From assembly GCF_032813545.1 (NCBI RefSeq), contig NZ_CP136520.1:2846001-2910000 (forward strand): a stretch of DNA of 64,000 nt, given 5' to 3'. This DNA comes from Nodosilinea sp. E11. Lineage in GTDB: Bacteria; Cyanobacteriota; Cyanobacteriia; Phormidesmidales; Phormidesmidaceae. The translations under genes were made by a program, and so were the position numbers. Of this stretch, positions 6,374-51,054 are shown piece after piece. The notes below the pieces were generated by a model that saw nothing but the letters and a program-made list of their open reading frames with translations, searched no databases and was not told the DNA's origin. Each line of letters opens with the position of its first letter. The stretch's first letter is position 1.

Positions 6374-6934
6374 TCATTCGCTTCCGGCGGTCAGCAACTC
6401 AACCCCATAATCCATATAGGTGCCGTCGGGCATCATTGCCCCAATTAGGTTAGCCCCATCGAGGTTGGCGTTGGTGATGTCAGCATGGCGCAGGTCAGCT
6501 CCCTGTAGATTGGCGTTGCTCAGATTAGCGCCCCGCAAATTGGCTTGTCTAAGATTGGCTCCCCGTAAATCGCTGCCCGCCATCACGGCCTCTTGCAATA
6601 GGGAACCCTGAAAATTTGTCCCCATGAGACTGGCTCCGGACAGAATCGCTCGTTTGAGCTGAGCCGCAGATACATCGGCCCGAAAGAAATCGGTGCCAAT
6701 AAGATTGGCCCAGTTGAGCCGGCTGTGTCGCAGACAGCTACGGGTAAACACGCCCCCAGGCATAAACGCCCCCGATAGGTTTAAGCCCTGCAAATTGCAA
6801 TCGATAAATTCTACAAACGGCAGCTTGATGCCCTCTAAGGACAGGTGGCGCAGATCTAAATCCTGAAATTTCAGCTGGCCTCGGCTAAAACACTGGTTCA
6901 GCAAATCAAGAGAGTAACGACTATTGGTAGCCAT
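6374..6934 (-). CDS. Pentapeptide-repeat protein
   Basis: The 186-residue product has tandem A(D/N)LXX pentapeptides from about residue 40 to 170 (for example GANLRQANLRGANLSNANLQ), which fold into a right-handed quadrilateral beta-helix. The first 35 residues and the last 15 lie outside the repeats. No signal peptide or membrane segment is seen, so it is probably cytosolic or peripheral. Such proteins are abundant in cyanobacteria and mostly of unknown role; some mimic DNA and some act in thylakoids. It converges on the permease gene with a gap of only 25 bases. Its promoter lies in the motif-rich stretch 6935-7391. Confidence 0.85.
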   Translation of the reverse strand: MATNSRYSLDLLNQCFSRGQLKFQDLDLRHLSLEGIKLPFVEFIDCNLQGLNLSGAFMPGGVFTRSCLRHSRLNWANLIGTDFFRADVSAAQLKRAILSGASLMGTNFQGSLLQEAVMAGSDLRGANLRQANLRGANLSNANLQGADLRHADITNANLDGANLIGAMMPDGTYMDYGVELLTAGSE

Positions 6935-7127
6935 GGGCGACGATTAAGCAGCGTAAAGGCGAATGCTTGACTTGAGATCGCGATCGCGCGACCGATAGAT
7001 GACGCCAATGCGCTTGACTTACCTGCCTCAATCCGTTTACCAGACTGGGTTAGCGCATTTCCCTTACTGCCTATCCTAGGAGATTTGTCGCACGTTACAA
7101 GGTTATCTCCCTTAACTCTTTGCACCC

Positions 7128-7154
7128 TTCACATAATTTACATCCTTCACATAA
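7128..7154. promoter_or_regulatory. Three tandem 9-bp TTCACATAA-like repeats
   Basis: TTCACATAA, TTTACATCC and TTCACATAA follow one another without gaps, and a further GTTACAAG sits at 7094. They resemble response-regulator half-sites like those at 7283-7311 but do not match HLR1 spacing. They lie upstream of both the pentapeptide gene (minus) and the small membrane protein gene (plus). Confidence 0.4.
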
Positions 7155-7282
7155 ATAGATTACCAACCGGCAAAACCAACCAACCTGCGCCACCTGAGCC
7201 CAGCCTCGACAACACCAACAGACCAGCAAGGCGTGAGCCTTATCATCCGAAGCAAAGAAAATGCAATTCAATTTGACATTTC

Positions 7283-7311
7283 GTTACATTAGAGTTACAT
7301 TTATTTACATA
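7283..7311 (+). promoter_or_regulatory. HLR1-type operator (RpaB site) with an extra half-site, overlapping a promoter
   Basis: GTTACATT, two bases, TTTACATA at 7294-7311 fits the HLR1 consensus (K)TTACA(W)(W)-N2-(K)TTACA(W)(W) exactly. A third GTTACATT sits three bases upstream at 7283-7290. A TTGACA at 7274-7279 followed by TACATT at 7296-7301 could be the promoter, which would place the operator over the -10 region. HLR1 is bound by the response regulator RpaB and controls light-stress genes. The next gene on this strand starts at 7392. Confidence 0.6.
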
Positions 7312-7391
7312 AGCGGAATGCGCCAGCCCACTTTGCCCAACTTTAGAGGCGTGTTTTGCAGCTGTCACCACTTCGAACTGGAGGTTCACCC

Positions 7392-7625
7392 ATGACTGCT
7401 CTACTCATTTCTCTTTTTGTCATTGGCTGGGTTGCTGCCGCACTCATTGGTAGTCAAGCCTACTTCCGAGGCGAGCAAACCAAGCCCATCCACGAACGCA
7501 ACTGGCGCTCCGACTCCTTCGACCAGCTTGCCGAATCGGTCACGGGCCAGGCCACCAGCTTTGGCGATCGCGTGCCCGCCTACGGTGGCGACGCTTACTC
7601 TAGCCAGGCCTTGTCTAGTCAGTAA
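7392..7625 (+). CDS. Small single-span membrane protein, possibly the PSII assembly factor Psb35
   Basis: I start at the ATG at 7392, which gives 77 residues beginning MTALLISLFVIGWVAAALIG, one membrane helix. A longer frame from 7356 would disturb that N terminus. The helix is followed by SQAYFRGEQTKPIHERNW, a strongly conserved cyanobacterial motif. From memory this pattern belongs to the family of Synechocystis Ssl2148, named Psb35, which helps stabilise CP47 and HliA-type proteins in the thylakoid; the assignment is not certain. The gene stands alone, with an HLR1-type operator about 80 bases upstream and a strong terminator 65 bases downstream. That suggests a short, light-stress-controlled transcript. 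Confidence 0.75.
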   Translation: MTALLISLFVIGWVAAALIGSQAYFRGEQTKPIHERNWRSDSFDQLAESVTGQATSFGDRVPAYGGDAYSSQALSSQ

Positions 7626-7690
7626 TGTTTCACCGTTGACTGATACCCACTATCTGCAAGGTATCGACTAAAAACTCTCCTACTCTAGGC

Positions 7691-7720
7691 AACCGCTTCT
7701 CTAAAGGAAGCGGTTTTTTT
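7691..7720 (+). terminator. Rho-independent terminator
   Basis: AACCGCTTC, a seven-base loop and GAAGCGGTT form a perfect nine-base-pair stem followed directly by a run of T. It ends the transcript of the small membrane-protein gene. Confidence 0.9.
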
Positions 7721-7810
7721 ATTGTTCCACCGAATCCGAATTCCATACCTCCGATACCCAATCGGTCAACCTGTAGGCGCTAACCGCCGTTCGCCCAGTG
7801 GAATCGCAGG

Positions 7811-32706: not shown

Positions 32707-35700
32707 TTAATTTTGCATTTTCAATTTCTCTAACTGCTCCGCCGCCCATTCTCTGAGCTGCACGTCGTTGTCGTTTTGAGCGCGGTCTTGCAGCAGTTCT
32801 AGAGTTTTGGGATGGCCGGGATGTTGCTGTACCAGCACGTTGAGGGCGGTTTGGCGAGGGTTATCATCCCATTCATACTCGCGTTCAAAAGGATCGTTGA
32901 GCGCGCGATCGCACCAAAGCTCAAATAAGTTTAGGTCGTCTTTGAAGCCCTTGGCTAACTCCTGCACCGCCGCCATCCGCACAGCGTTATCTTCATCACT
33001 TTGGGCACGGGTTTTGAGAATGAGCAACGTCTCGGGGTCGTCGTTGAAGCCCTTGGCTAACTCCTGCACCGCCGCCCTCCGCACAGCGTAATTCTCATCA
33101 CTTTGGGCACGGGTTTTGAGCCAGGGCAACGTCTCGGGGTCGTCTTTGAAGCCCTTGGCTAACTCCTGCACCGCCGCCCTCCGCACAGCGTAATTCTCAT
33201 CACTTTGGGCACGGGTTTTGAGAATGAGCAACGTCTCGGGGTCGTCTTTGAAGCCCTTGGCTAACTCCTGCACCGCCGCCATCCGCACAGCGTAATTCTC
33301 ATCACTTTGGGCACGGGTTTTGAGAATGGGCAACGTCTCGGGGTCGTCTTTGAAGCCCTTGGCTAACTCCTGCACCGCCGCCCTCCGCACAGCGTAATTC
33401 TCATCACTTTGGGCACGGGTTTTGAGCCAGGGCAACGTCTCGGGGTCGTCTTTGAAGCCCTTGGCTAACTCCTGCACCGCCGCCCTCCGCACAGCGTAAT
33501 TCTCATCACTTTGGGCACGGGTTTTGAGCCAGGGCAACGTCTCGGGGTCGTCTTTGAAGCCCTTGGCTAACTCCTGCACCGCCGCCCTCCGCACAGCGTA
33601 ATTCTCATCACTTTGGGCACGGGTTTTGAGCCAGGGCAACGTCTCGGGGTCGTCTTTGAAGCCCTTGGCTAACTCCTGCACCGCCGCCATCCGCACATCG
33701 TAATTCTCATCACTTTGGGCACGGGTTTTGAGAATGAGCAACGTCTCGGGGTCGTCTTTGAAGCCCTTGGCTAACTCCTGCACCGCCGCCATCCGCACAG
33801 CGTAATTCTCATCACTTTGGGCACGGGTTTTGAGCCAGGGCAGGGTATCTGATGCAGTGAACCAATTCTGGGCGATCGCGGCAACCACCGCCTCTGGAAT
33901 GTATGAGTCTGGGTTAACTCGAATCCAGCTTTTGAGAAGCGGGAGCAAATTGATATGCTCTCGCCACGCACTGACAGCGGCTCCGACAACAGCATCCGAA
34001 GCATTTCGATCTAGATTATAGGGATACTGGTCTTCGACCTCAGCTTTAAGCCGTTGAAAAAGCTGGTCGGCTTGAGTGGTCAGCTCTTTGCGATTGCGGA
34101 CTTCTGAAAGACAGTTTGCTGCTAACAGTAAGTTGCTCAACCCCTCTCTTTCAAGGGAACCACCATTAGAAAAAGCTACCTTATCAACTTTTTGATCGAG
34201 CAGTAACGTAGTTAGGCTACCAACAAATTTTGCTTCAATCATTCCTGCAATCAGGCGCAAGACCTCTTGCCAGCTTTCTTCCTGCCAGTGGGCTCCAAAG
34301 GTCTGATCGCGCAATTTCTCAAACGTAATCGTTTGGGTTTCCTTGAACTCCCAAACAAAGGCCCAGGCCGCAAAGAACTCTAGAAACGTGCGATGTACAA
34401 AGGCGTAATTGTCGGCACCCAAATAGCACAAAATGAAGTTCCGTGTTCGTAGCTGCTGAATCATCCGTCGCGCCACATCGCGAGGTTGATCCACATCAAT
34501 AGCTTTCAAATAGTCCGTCAAAATCGCTTCTAAATCTTGAGCACTAATGATGTTTCCCGCCAGCCCCGCTTCGCCCGACTGCATGTGATACGCCACCTTT
34601 CGCAGCATCGCCTGCTTATCGCGATAGTCAATCGTCACCGGGTCAAGCTTTTGTTCAATCAAATTTCGCTCCACATCCCACTGGTGCAGCAGCACCCGCG
34701 ACGCCTGGTTATACAGCTCCGGTCTATCCCTCGGTAGCTCCTGGTTGCGGTTCAAAATCGCCATCATCGTCAGCAGCAGCGGGTTCCCCGCCAGCTCCCG
34801 AATCGCCTTCGACTCTCGAATCGCCTTGTGCAGCCGCTCCCGCTTCCGCACCTTATCCGCCCCTTCCGGAAACGTCTGGTCGTGCCACCGCGCAATAAAC
34901 TCGGCAATCTGCTCATCCGTCAGGTCTTGCAGCATGTAGTGCTGAAACCCGGCATCTCGCAGGGTCTGCGCCTTGTACCCCAGCCACCGCGAGGTCACCA
35001 CCACCTGCACCGGGGGGTAGTCGTTGGTAAAGCGGTGAATATCCGTCACCACCACATCCCGCAGGTTGGGGTCAAACACCTCATCAATGCCGTCAAACAG
35101 GGCAATGGCATCCCCCGCCAGCAGCACCTCATGAAGCCGCTGCTGGTTCAGCCGACAGGCAATATCCCCCTGGTGCAGATACTCCACCATGCTGCTGCAT
35201 TTCTGGTCGTTGCGATCGCGCGCATACTTTCGCAGCTCAATCAGCAGCGGCAGCGGTCGCTGGGTCAGCTCCTTGAGGTCGCGAATCGGCTGTTCGGCCC
35301 ACTGCAATGCCACATACTGCAACAACGTCGATTTCCCCGACCCCGGATCGCCTAGCACCACGGCACAGTCTGCCACTGGGCGGCTCCGCTGCCCCACCCC
35401 TGCCGTGCGCCCCACCACCTCCAGCACATTTTGAATGGGCTGCTCTACATAGGTCTGGCGATAGGCTTCAATTTGCGCTGCTTCCAGCGCTTCGGCATCC
35501 AGTTCGCCCCGCTGCTGGAGTTCCTTCAGCTTTTCCTTAGGAATCTCGTACACCTTGGGGTTAAACTCCTGGCACGTCCGCACATCCTGGGGAATGAACA
35601 TGCGCCATAGCTTCAGGTCGTTGTAGGCATAGGCAGAGGTGTCCAGCGACTCCAGCTTCAGGTTGCCGTACTGCTCCCGCAGGGTCTCCTGATACTTCTG

Positions 35701-36357
35701 CAAGTCAAAATCCGGCGGAATCCCTACCAGTTCTTCAATGCCCTGGCGCATCGCCTCCTGGTTGTGCAGCTTCAGCAAGTCCCGCAGTTCATCCGAACTG
35801 CGCAAAATGCCCTTTACCGCCCGCACGTACTGCTTGCCAATTTGTGGCCAGTCAAACTCCTCCGGCAAAGGTCGCAACTCTAGTGTGTCCCACCGCAGCG
35901 CCAGCATCTCGGCATCAATGGCGCGGCAATCCGGCTCAAAAGCTTTGCCCAAGGTCGCCTTCACGTCCTTATCTTTCATGAACTCCCGCAGCGGAATCTC
36001 ATAAAAGTCGCGAATCTCCGCCCCAGAGCAGCCCTGAAACTTTAGCTCTTCCTCCACCAGTTCCACAAACGCCTTTAGCGCTTCGCCAAGCGCTTTCTGC
36101 ACAGGCGCTTGGCTGGCTAAACCCGCTGCATCCGCAATGCAGCCCTTAAAAAAATCTTTGGCATAATCTTCCAGACTGCCTTGCAGCAGGGGCAGCAACA
36201 CATCTTTAGCGACGTACTTGCCTGTTTCCTTCAACCCGATCGCAGCAAGAATGTCCAACACCATAGCTTTCAGGCCCGTGGGCGCAGTTTCTACAACTAT
36301 ATCGCTGGTAAAAGAATCTGCCCCCAAACCGCTAGGGTGCTTCCGCAGAGGAAGCAT
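32707..36357 (-). CDS. NACHT-domain STAND ATPase with nine near-identical HEAT-like repeats (bacterial NLR-like)
   Basis: The 1216-residue protein has three parts. Residues 1-310 are a helical N-terminal region without recognised effector motifs. The NACHT ATPase follows, with Walker A LGDPGSGKST (336-344), Walker B AIALFDGIDE (about 417-426), sensor VVVTSRWLG and a long helical tail. Residues 839-1144 are nine 34-residue repeats of the type LPWLKTRAQSDENYAVR, AAVQELAKGFKDDPET, ending in a diverged tail with REWAAEQLEKLK. Bacterial NACHT proteins act in phage defence, where the repeat region senses and the N terminus kills or signals. The start is uncertain: TATAAT lies only ten bases ahead of the ATG at 36357, and an ATG at 36264 is the alternative. 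The gene contains GCGATCGC octamers, so it is not a fresh import. Confidence 0.9.
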   Translation of the reverse strand: MLPLRKHPSGLGADSFTSDIVVETAPTGLKAMVLDILAAIGLKETGKYVAKDVLLPLLQGSLEDYAKDFFKGCIADAAGLASQAPVQKALGEALKAFVELVEEELKFQGCSGAEIRDFYEIPLREFMKDKDVKATLGKAFEPDCRAIDAEMLALRWDTLELRPLPEEFDWPQIGKQYVRAVKGILRSSDELRDLLKLHNQEAMRQGIEELVGIPPDFDLQKYQETLREQYGNLKLESLDTSAYAYNDLKLWRMFIPQDVRTCQEFNPKVYEIPKEKLKELQQRGELDAEALEAAQIEAYRQTYVEQPIQNVLEVVGRTAGVGQRSRPVADCAVVLGDPGSGKSTLLQYVALQWAEQPIRDLKELTQRPLPLLIELRKYARDRNDQKCSSMVEYLHQGDIACRLNQQRLHEVLLAGDAIALFDGIDEVFDPNLRDVVVTDIHRFTNDYPPVQVVVTSRWLGYKAQTLRDAGFQHYMLQDLTDEQIAEFIARWHDQTFPEGADKVRKRERLHKAIRESKAIRELAGNPLLLTMMAILNRNQELPRDRPELYNQASRVLLHQWDVERNLIEQKLDPVTIDYRDKQAMLRKVAYHMQSGEAGLAGNIISAQDLEAILTDYLKAIDVDQPRDVARRMIQQLRTRNFILCYLGADNYAFVHRTFLEFFAAWAFVWEFKETQTITFEKLRDQTFGAHWQEESWQEVLRLIAGMIEAKFVGSLTTLLLDQKVDKVAFSNGGSLEREGLSNLLLAANCLSEVRNRKELTTQADQLFQRLKAEVEDQYPYNLDRNASDAVVGAAVSAWREHINLLPLLKSWIRVNPDSYIPEAVVAAIAQNWFTASDTLPWLKTRAQSDENYAVRMAAVQELAKGFKDDPETLLILKTRAQSDENYDVRMAAVQELAKGFKDDPETLPWLKTRAQSDENYAVRRAAVQELAKGFKDDPETLPWLKTRAQSDENYAVRRAAVQELAKGFKDDPETLPWLKTRAQSDENYAVRRAAVQELAKGFKDDPETLPILKTRAQSDENYAVRMAAVQELAKGFKDDPETLLILKTRAQSDENYAVRRAAVQELAKGFKDDPETLPWLKTRAQSDENYAVRRAAVQELAKGFNDDPETLLILKTRAQSDEDNAVRMAAVQELAKGFKDDLNLFELWCDRALNDPFEREYEWDDNPRQTALNVLVQQHPGHPKTLELLQDRAQNDNDVQLREWAAEQLEKLKMQN
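32926..33843 (-). repeat. Nine tandem 102-bp coding repeats
   Basis: The units keep a 102-base period (34 codons) and are almost identical in nucleotide sequence, differing at a few codons (W or I, A or D, R or M). Because the unit is a multiple of three, gain or loss keeps the frame. Near-identity at DNA level indicates recent expansion or ongoing homogenisation. Confidence 0.95.
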
Positions 36358-49044: not shown

Positions 49045-51054
49045 TTAATCAGGCTTGGGAGCGATCAGCGAAGCATCCGTAGGCGCAGGGCTGATGGCAG
49101 CGATCGCTAAATCTTTGCCGCCGTCGCTATGGGTGGTATCTTGAGCCAACACTTCGATCGCATCGGACTGATAGGCCGCCACATCAAACCAGAAAGTGGT
49201 ACCAACACCCACCTCGCTGACCAGATGCACCTGGCTGCTGTGCTTTTCGATAATGTTTTTGACAATAGAGAGCCCCAGGCCAGTGCCTTCTAAGGTATGG
49301 ACGCGGTTTTCGACCCGAAAGAAGCGATCGAAAATAGCCTGCTGATCTTCAGGGGCAATGCCAATGCCAGTGTCAGAAATTTCTATCCGAATATAGCCAG
49401 ACTGACCAGGGTCTTCGCTGGGAGAAACAATTTGATGCGCCCTCAACATCACTTGACCACCGGGTTCAGTAAACTTCAAAGCGTTGCCCACTAGGTTACT
49501 GAACACTTGCAACAGCAAATCATAGTTGCCCATGGCCGGGGGCAAGTTAGGTTCTACGTCTTGCAAAAGCTCAATCTGTTTATCGCGGGCATTGAGCCGG
49601 TGGGTACGCAGGGTCTGCTCAATGGGCTGCACAATATCGACCGCTTCGATCTGGTACTGGCGACTCGACTCTAGGCGCGACAGGTCGAGCACATCGTTGA
49701 CCAGGCGGGTAAGGCGATCGGTTTCGTGGTTGGCGGTTTCGAGAAATTCTTTGCGCTCGCCATCGCTCAAGTCTTCGCCGTACTCGTGCAGGGTTTCGAT
49801 GAAGGACTTGATATTGAACAGCGGCGTACGCAGCTCGTGGGAAACGTTGCTAATAAACTGAGCTTTAGCCTCGTTCAGGGCCACCTCACGGGTAATATCT
49901 TGCACCGTAATCGCTAAACCCTTAACGTTCTCTTTGGCCTGGTCAAGCACAGTGTTGAGCAAAATCCGCAGGGTGCGATGGCTGGGCTCGGTGATCGGCA
50001 CTCGAAATTCCATGGCCTCGGCCTCACCTTTGACCGCTTTAAACAAAGGGCGAGTTAGCTGTACTCGCACCGGACTGGGAAAATGCTCCAAAATATTACG
50101 GCCATCTAGAATCTGATCATCCCATCCAAAGATGCGGCGGGCGGTGGGGTTGACCAACACAGCGTGCATGTCGCTGTCGAGCAGAATAGCGCCGTCAGCG
50201 ATGGTTGAGACTAAGGTTTCAAGCTTCGCCTTTTCGGCGGTAAGTTCCTCAATGTTTTGCTCTTCATAGCTTTCTAGGCGCTCGGCCATGTCGTTGAAGC
50301 TATAGATAAGCTCCCCCAGTTCGCCGCCCAGGGGCAGGTCAATGCGCTGATTGAAGTTGCCAGCGGCAATATTTTTCACCCCCAGCACCAGTTCTTTAAT
50401 CGGTTGGGTAATCGTGAGGGCGTTAAACACCGCGCCTAAAATCACCATCACCCAGATTGAGACAAACACGGCAATGGTAACGTCGCGCGTCAGGTGCGAC
50501 GAGGCCACCACGGTGGGGTTGGGGTTAATGCCCAAGGCCAGCACACCCAGGTGAGTGCCGTTGTAGTTGAGCGGCACAAACACATCAGTGACTTCACCAG
50601 CGGGGGTAACATGCTGACGCACCAGGGGGCGATCGGTGTTTTGGGCATAGCCCTCAGGCAGCTGCATCCGCCGTCTAAGAGAGAGCGAGTTTTGCACTGC
50701 CGATTCAGAGAAGGGAATGCCAAAGAAAATGTCGCCATTTTCGTCGGCGTAGAGCATGTAACGCACGCTAGAGGTGCTCTGGTAAAAGCTGTAGGAAAAC
50801 CGGGCCAATTCGGTGCGATCGGCCTCGTTGACCAGGGGGGCGACGTTGGCAGCCAGCAACAACCCCAGATCACGAGCAAAACGGGTGTCGTTGAGGCGAG
50901 CATCCATTTGGATGGTGTTGACAGCCCAAAAGGTGAGCGCACTGGTAATCATCGACACCACTAACGTTGCCCCGGCCATGAGCCGAGTCTGTAGAGTGAA
51001 GTCGCCCCACCAGCGCAGGAAGATATCACGGATTTTAGCCAGGAGCCTGATCAA
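49045..51054 (-). CDS. nblS: NblS/Hik33-type sensor histidine kinase
   Basis: NblS (Hik33, DspA) is the essential cyanobacterial sensor that phosphorylates RpaB and controls responses to high light, cold and nutrient stress. The 669-residue protein has helix 1 near residue 27-50, a periplasmic domain and helix 2 near residue 195. A HAMP (TITQPIKELVLGVKNIAAGN) and a PAS domain (GAILLDSDMHAVLVNPTARR) follow. The H-box is ISNVSHELRTPL, and the ATPase motifs are ISDTGIGIAPED and GTGLGLSIV. It fits the size of orthologues. An HLR1 site, the target of its partner, occurs in this window at 7294. Confidence 0.93.
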   Translation of the reverse strand: MIRLLAKIRDIFLRWWGDFTLQTRLMAGATLVVSMITSALTFWAVNTIQMDARLNDTRFARDLGLLLAANVAPLVNEADRTELARFSYSFYQSTSSVRYMLYADENGDIFFGIPFSESAVQNSLSLRRRMQLPEGYAQNTDRPLVRQHVTPAGEVTDVFVPLNYNGTHLGVLALGINPNPTVVASSHLTRDVTIAVFVSIWVMVILGAVFNALTITQPIKELVLGVKNIAAGNFNQRIDLPLGGELGELIYSFNDMAERLESYEEQNIEELTAEKAKLETLVSTIADGAILLDSDMHAVLVNPTARRIFGWDDQILDGRNILEHFPSPVRVQLTRPLFKAVKGEAEAMEFRVPITEPSHRTLRILLNTVLDQAKENVKGLAITVQDITREVALNEAKAQFISNVSHELRTPLFNIKSFIETLHEYGEDLSDGERKEFLETANHETDRLTRLVNDVLDLSRLESSRQYQIEAVDIVQPIEQTLRTHRLNARDKQIELLQDVEPNLPPAMGNYDLLLQVFSNLVGNALKFTEPGGQVMLRAHQIVSPSEDPGQSGYIRIEISDTGIGIAPEDQQAIFDRFFRVENRVHTLEGTGLGLSIVKNIIEKHSSQVHLVSEVGVGTTFWFDVAAYQSDAIEVLAQDTTHSDGGKDLAIAAISPAPTDASLIAPKPD

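Follow-up and report, generated by a model that had tools for sequence, protein, structure and literature searches.

A tandem HLR1 array over the predicted promoter of a Psb35-related one-helix protein gene in Nodosilinea suggests membership of the NblS-RpaB high-light regulon

The high-light promoters of cyanobacteria that are controlled by RpaB (those of hliA/hliB, psb34 and sigD/rpoD3) have in common an 18-bp HLR1 element lying over the core promoter, with small photoprotective or PSII proteins encoded behind it. The HLR1 consensus is KTTACAWW-N2-KTTACAWW, and we score matches to it out of 16 positions. The effect of the element depends on where it lies: HLR1 at -66 to -45 relative to the transcription start activates, while HLR1 at -38 to +23 represses (2026 review, PMC13421787). 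Among the small proteins of PSII, Psb35 (ssl2148; NF047378) is a one-helix protein. A related family, NF047380, carries the NCBIfam name 'photosystem II protein, Psb35-related', and we found no paper on it, or naming it, in the open-access literature searched. Here we describe a member of NF047380 from Nodosilinea sp. E11. The RpaB/HLR1 mechanism is already known, and the gene is a well-supported new predicted member of the regulon.

The window analyzed is the whole stretch of 64,000 nucleotides from this genome, and all unprefixed positions below refer to it. The relevant features are the following.

7273-7290, plus strand: upstream HLR1-like site, TTGACATT (7273-7280)-TC-GTTACATT (7283-7290), 15/16, one mismatch
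7273-7301, plus strand: sigma-70-type promoter TTGACA-17-TACATT, with the -35 element TTGACA at 7273-7278 and the -10-like TACATT at 7296-7301
7294-7311, plus strand: perfect HLR1, GTTACATT (7294-7301)-TA-TTTACATA (7304-7311), 16/16
7380-7384, plus strand: Shine-Dalgarno sequence GGAGG, kept in the genus alignment
7392-7625, plus strand: 77-aa one-helix membrane protein, NF047380 (138.6 bits against a cut-off of 80, full-length)
7691-7715, plus strand: intrinsic terminator, a 10-bp stem followed by a T run (-14.3 kcal/mol, z -3.6)
49045-51054, minus strand: nblS, the sensor kinase of RpaB (NF045911, 1163.7 bits against a cut-off of 1000)

A preliminary description of this DNA had proposed a triple operator, in which two half-sites separated by 2 bp form an HLR1 and a third stands three bases upstream. 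The HLR1 itself is a perfect match, and the third half-site is indeed present at 7283-7290. The count of three, however, was too low: a fourth, TTGACATT, occupies 7273-7280, and the four half-sites make up two HLR1 copies 21 bp apart (host DNA 7271-7314, from the -35 region onward: atTTGACATTtcGTTACATTagaGTTACATTtaTTTACATAagc). Perfect HLR1 sites (KTTACAWWNNKTTACAWW) occur only five times in the 6.1-Mb genome (seven contigs), and 12 more sites have one mismatch; the copies at 7273-7290 and 7294-7311 are the only adjacent pair among these 17. When the genome was searched for two perfect HLR1 copies spaced 2-4 bp apart, nothing was returned, because the upstream copy here has one mismatch.

The -35/-10 pair was likewise correctly described as overlapping the HLR1. 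TTGACA sits within the upstream HLR1 copy, and TACATT, a mediocre -10, within the first half-site of the perfect one. Across orthologues, TTGACA is sharply enriched only 21-22 bp upstream of HLR1, which places it 17-18 bp from TACAWW; this conserved spacing therefore identifies the first half-site as the -10 region. The transcription start is accordingly predicted at ~7308, in or just behind the second half-site of the perfect HLR1. Relative to this predicted start, both HLR1 copies would lie at about -36 to +3, that is, in the repressing zone, and we therefore infer repression in low light and induction in high light. The end of HLR1 is followed by 80 nt of leader before the ATG. The strong terminator that had been proposed is real, lying just beyond the span 7274-7625 originally assigned to the unit, and an Rfam search of 6900-7800 detected no RNA family.

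Other elements were seen upstream. An 18-bp direct repeat at 7119-7154 (TTTGCACCCTTCACATAA / TTTACATCCTTCACATAA, with TTCACATA/TTTACATC units recurring every 9 bp) lies between a divergent pentapeptide-repeat gene (6374-6934, minus strand) and the HLR1 promoter, and its 9-bp period is at odds with HLR1. In the genus alignment, short blocks TTATCAy and GCAAy are conserved at 7239-7275, upstream of the tandem HLR1, and possibly represent an extra regulator or a UP-type element.

The preliminary description had named beforehand the comparison of orthologous upstream regions as a test able to refute its proposal, and the motif turned out to be conserved. All fetched loci were reduced to 112 dissimilar (non-redundant) upstream regions, and HLR1 was counted when it scored at least 14/16 within 220 bp on the coding strand. 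It was present in 89 of the 112 regions, compared with 6/112 on the reverse strand and 10/1120 in shuffled sequences, and both half-sites carry nearly 2 bits per core base across orthologues. Dozens of cyanobacterial genera have retained the site. Within Nodosilinea, the tandem arrangement is found in 18 of 19 species, with the copies 21-22 bp apart and the upstream copy scoring 14-15/16, while shuffled genus promoters gave none (0/3,800). The ribosome site excepted, no other block in the 200 bp upstream is as well conserved in the genus alignment as the array.

Eighteen of the 112 regions have no local HLR1 (score <13), and most of these have one farther upstream. In nine, the gene stands behind psb34 and an HLR1 (14-16/16) lies ahead of psb34; in five, it stands behind a PGR5-family gene with an HLR1 (14-16/16) upstream of the latter. 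The remainder comprise one gene behind psb34 at a contig end and three regions without explanation. Counting both direct sites and those ahead of a psb34/pgr5 unit, HLR1 thus precedes the gene in 103 of 112 cases; the operons are putative and drawn from gene order and strand alone. The nine regions without an HLR1 of 14/16 even through an operon include five that score 13, the one cut by a contig end, and the three with none. In one Moorena genome (L164), psb34 and the NF047380 gene have been duplicated together.

The genome encodes RpaB (locus L113, G000:C7:3430451; 396.9 bits, over the cut-off) as well as NblS, whose gene had been correctly placed in the window; its position there, 42 kb off, is not evidence of a link to the NF047380 gene. 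The other best HLR1 sites of the genome precede psb34/pgr5, two Hli-type proteins (both recognized by sequence, without an NCBIfam match over the cut-off), and a sigD-containing unit, and psb34, hli and sigD units are known RpaB-target types. Because the site is conserved, RpaB and NblS are both encoded, and the other best sites precede known target types, the earlier suggestion that the gene is a good candidate for the NblS-RpaB regulon is strongly supported, and membership of this known high-light regulon is very probable.

The survey of HLR1 sites and of the window gave some further observations. At G000:C7:1853000-1855500 (L062), psb34 and then pgr5 follow a perfect HLR1 that has one more half-site upstream of it. 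At L073 (1180-2464; G000:C7:4076180 onward), an HLR1 with one mismatch lies 40 nt ahead of a 43-aa one-helix ORF (MNIFEILVEVGATLVVAGWLLKRRSEE...), followed by sigD; this ORF has no family match and is a candidate high-light small protein. Another one-mismatch HLR1 (L067, G000:C7:1214835) lies 61 nt ahead of a gene for a protein of 158 aa with a distant likeness to allophycocyanin (27 bits, far under the cut-off), and two further perfect sites precede a pentapeptide-repeat protein and a 363-aa SAM methyltransferase-looking protein (L063 and L064). Elsewhere in the window, a NACHT-like protein of 1216 aa is encoded at 32707-36357 (minus strand); its many HEAT-like repeats of 37 residues (LKTRAQSDENYAVRRAAVQELAKGFKDDPE) are almost identical to one another, which suggests that they expanded recently.

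The direction of regulation could be the opposite of that proposed here if RpaB bound the array and activated the gene in low light from a start (~7350) placed as in PSI genes, 45-66 nt beyond HLR1; the gene would then be off in high light. The 80-nt stretch between HLR1 and the ATG would leave space for such a start in the window, with HLR1 at -45 to -66. However, HLR1 begins only 38-58 nt ahead of the start codon in most orthologues, which leaves no such space except on a leaderless mRNA; the conserved spacing of TTGACA indicates a start inside or just behind HLR1, and the genus alignment lacks a conserved -10 downstream. We therefore regard low-light activation as unlikely and favor repression by RpaB in low light.

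It is less probable still that the repeats are read primarily by another OmpR-family regulator, namely RpaA or an RpaB paralogue such as SrrA. Direct-repeat sites are common to OmpR-type regulators, 21 Trans_reg_C matches occur in the genome, and RpaA and RpaB compete at some sites (PMC13421787), but the match here covers the full 18-bp HLR1 consensus with its 2-bp spacing, and the same motif marks the known RpaB-target types in the host genome. A chance match in AT-rich sequence, or a doubled -10 region that plays no part in regulation, seems a hardly credible account of the motif. TACAWW is -10-like, and its conservation may be partly that of a promoter; yet a promoter would not hold both half-sites at such information content, would not keep a tandem copy in nearly every species of the genus, and would not have its site shift with the gene to the head of psb34/pgr5 operons.

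The product had been described as a one-helix protein with a conserved motif encoded by a Psb35-like gene. The motif GEQTKPIHERNW is present and near-invariant in orthologues, among which the pattern GEQxKxIHxRN is invariant, and the structure model has a membrane helix at residues 2-30 and a short second helix at 41-51 (mean pLDDT 79). Likeness to Psb35 holds at the level of the Psb35-related family NF047380 and not for Psb35 itself: the Psb35 model NF047378 gives 17.3 bits against a cut-off of 40, with similarity confined to the membrane helix, and this identity was rejected. The host genome has a separate true Psb35, whose promoter is without HLR1 (best 11/16). HLR1 as a general trait of Psb35-type genes was also rejected, since only 2 of 30 Psb35 promoters reach 14/16. 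Pfam and PDB sequence searches with the 77-aa protein found nothing, and Foldseek found no PDB counterpart for its model at E values up to 10.

Of the 292 genomes sampled across the phylum, 56-60 contain an orthologue (59 in one count, and 56 when the curated cut-off of the family model is applied), as do 44 of 57 genomes of the host's family, and 328 places with an orthologue were located in genomes of named species. No copy of the gene turned up in the S. elongatus control genome, and Synechocystis probably lacks it as well; published lists of RpaB targets would therefore not be expected to include it. One genus has three reduced genomes (2.8-3.1 Mb), probably those of non-photosynthetic diatom endosymbionts, in which the NF047380 gene (L057, L058 and L059) is broken by stops and the CP43/CP47 genes are broken too, while a congener (G143) is intact for both. 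Upstream of the broken copies, HLR1 has decayed to 12-13/16. The co-loss with CP43/CP47 fits a PSII-dependent function, although many photosynthesis genes decay together once photosynthesis is lost. A role in PSII is suggested by the NCBI family name, the gene neighbors and this co-loss.

From these sequence features, we propose the following working model. In low light, RpaB dimers would bind side by side on the two HLR1 copies; the -35, the -10 and the start would all lie beneath them, and RNA polymerase would be blocked. In high light, NblS would no longer keep RpaB phosphorylated and RpaB would leave, so that transcription could run from ~7308 as far as the terminator (7691-7715). The protein would insert through one membrane helix, with the conserved tail behind it, GEQTKPIHERNW, on the likely cytoplasmic side, and would probably act on intermediates of PSII assembly or repair alongside Psb34 and Hli proteins. 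The reading as a whole is in our judgment likely to be correct: a high-light-inducible NblS-RpaB promoter from which one gene alone is transcribed, encoding a one-helix thylakoid protein associated with PSII. More tentatively, and with somewhat less than even confidence, NF047380 may represent an undescribed PSII assembly/repair factor that is induced by high light, occurs in a large part of cyanobacteria and is missing from standard model strains. In this reading, it possibly connects the repair of PSII with PGR5-dependent cyclic flow, and the tandem HLR1 would provide RpaB control that is cooperative and tighter than at single-site targets.

These results add a widely conserved gene to the predicted RpaB regulon, one that is out of reach of work on S. 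elongatus and probably of work on Synechocystis as well. A small PSII-linked protein that is tied to psb34 and pgr5 by putative operons and predicted common HLR1 control is a candidate factor for light-stress acclimation in filamentous cyanobacteria, and the genus-wide tandem HLR1 offers a natural case for the study of cooperative RpaB repression.

Compared with the systems described so far, the 77-aa protein shares with Psb35 its small one-helix form and, in the membrane helix, a weak likeness (hhalign probability 68 across 23 columns), whereas its C-terminal tail is different and Psb35 promoters are mostly without HLR1. As a member of NF047380, it differs in nothing from its family. Psb34 (NF033486) and cyanobacterial PGR5 (NF049860) are HLR1-controlled, as the NF047380 gene very probably is, and in several genera the NF047380 gene lies directly behind one of them in a putative operon; however, the families are unrelated by profile score, and the psb34-pgr5 unit of the host is located elsewhere, behind its own HLR1. 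With the RpaB high-light promoters, the Nodosilinea NF047380 promoter has the core-promoter HLR1 in common, and it is distinguished from them by carrying this element as a tandem pair.
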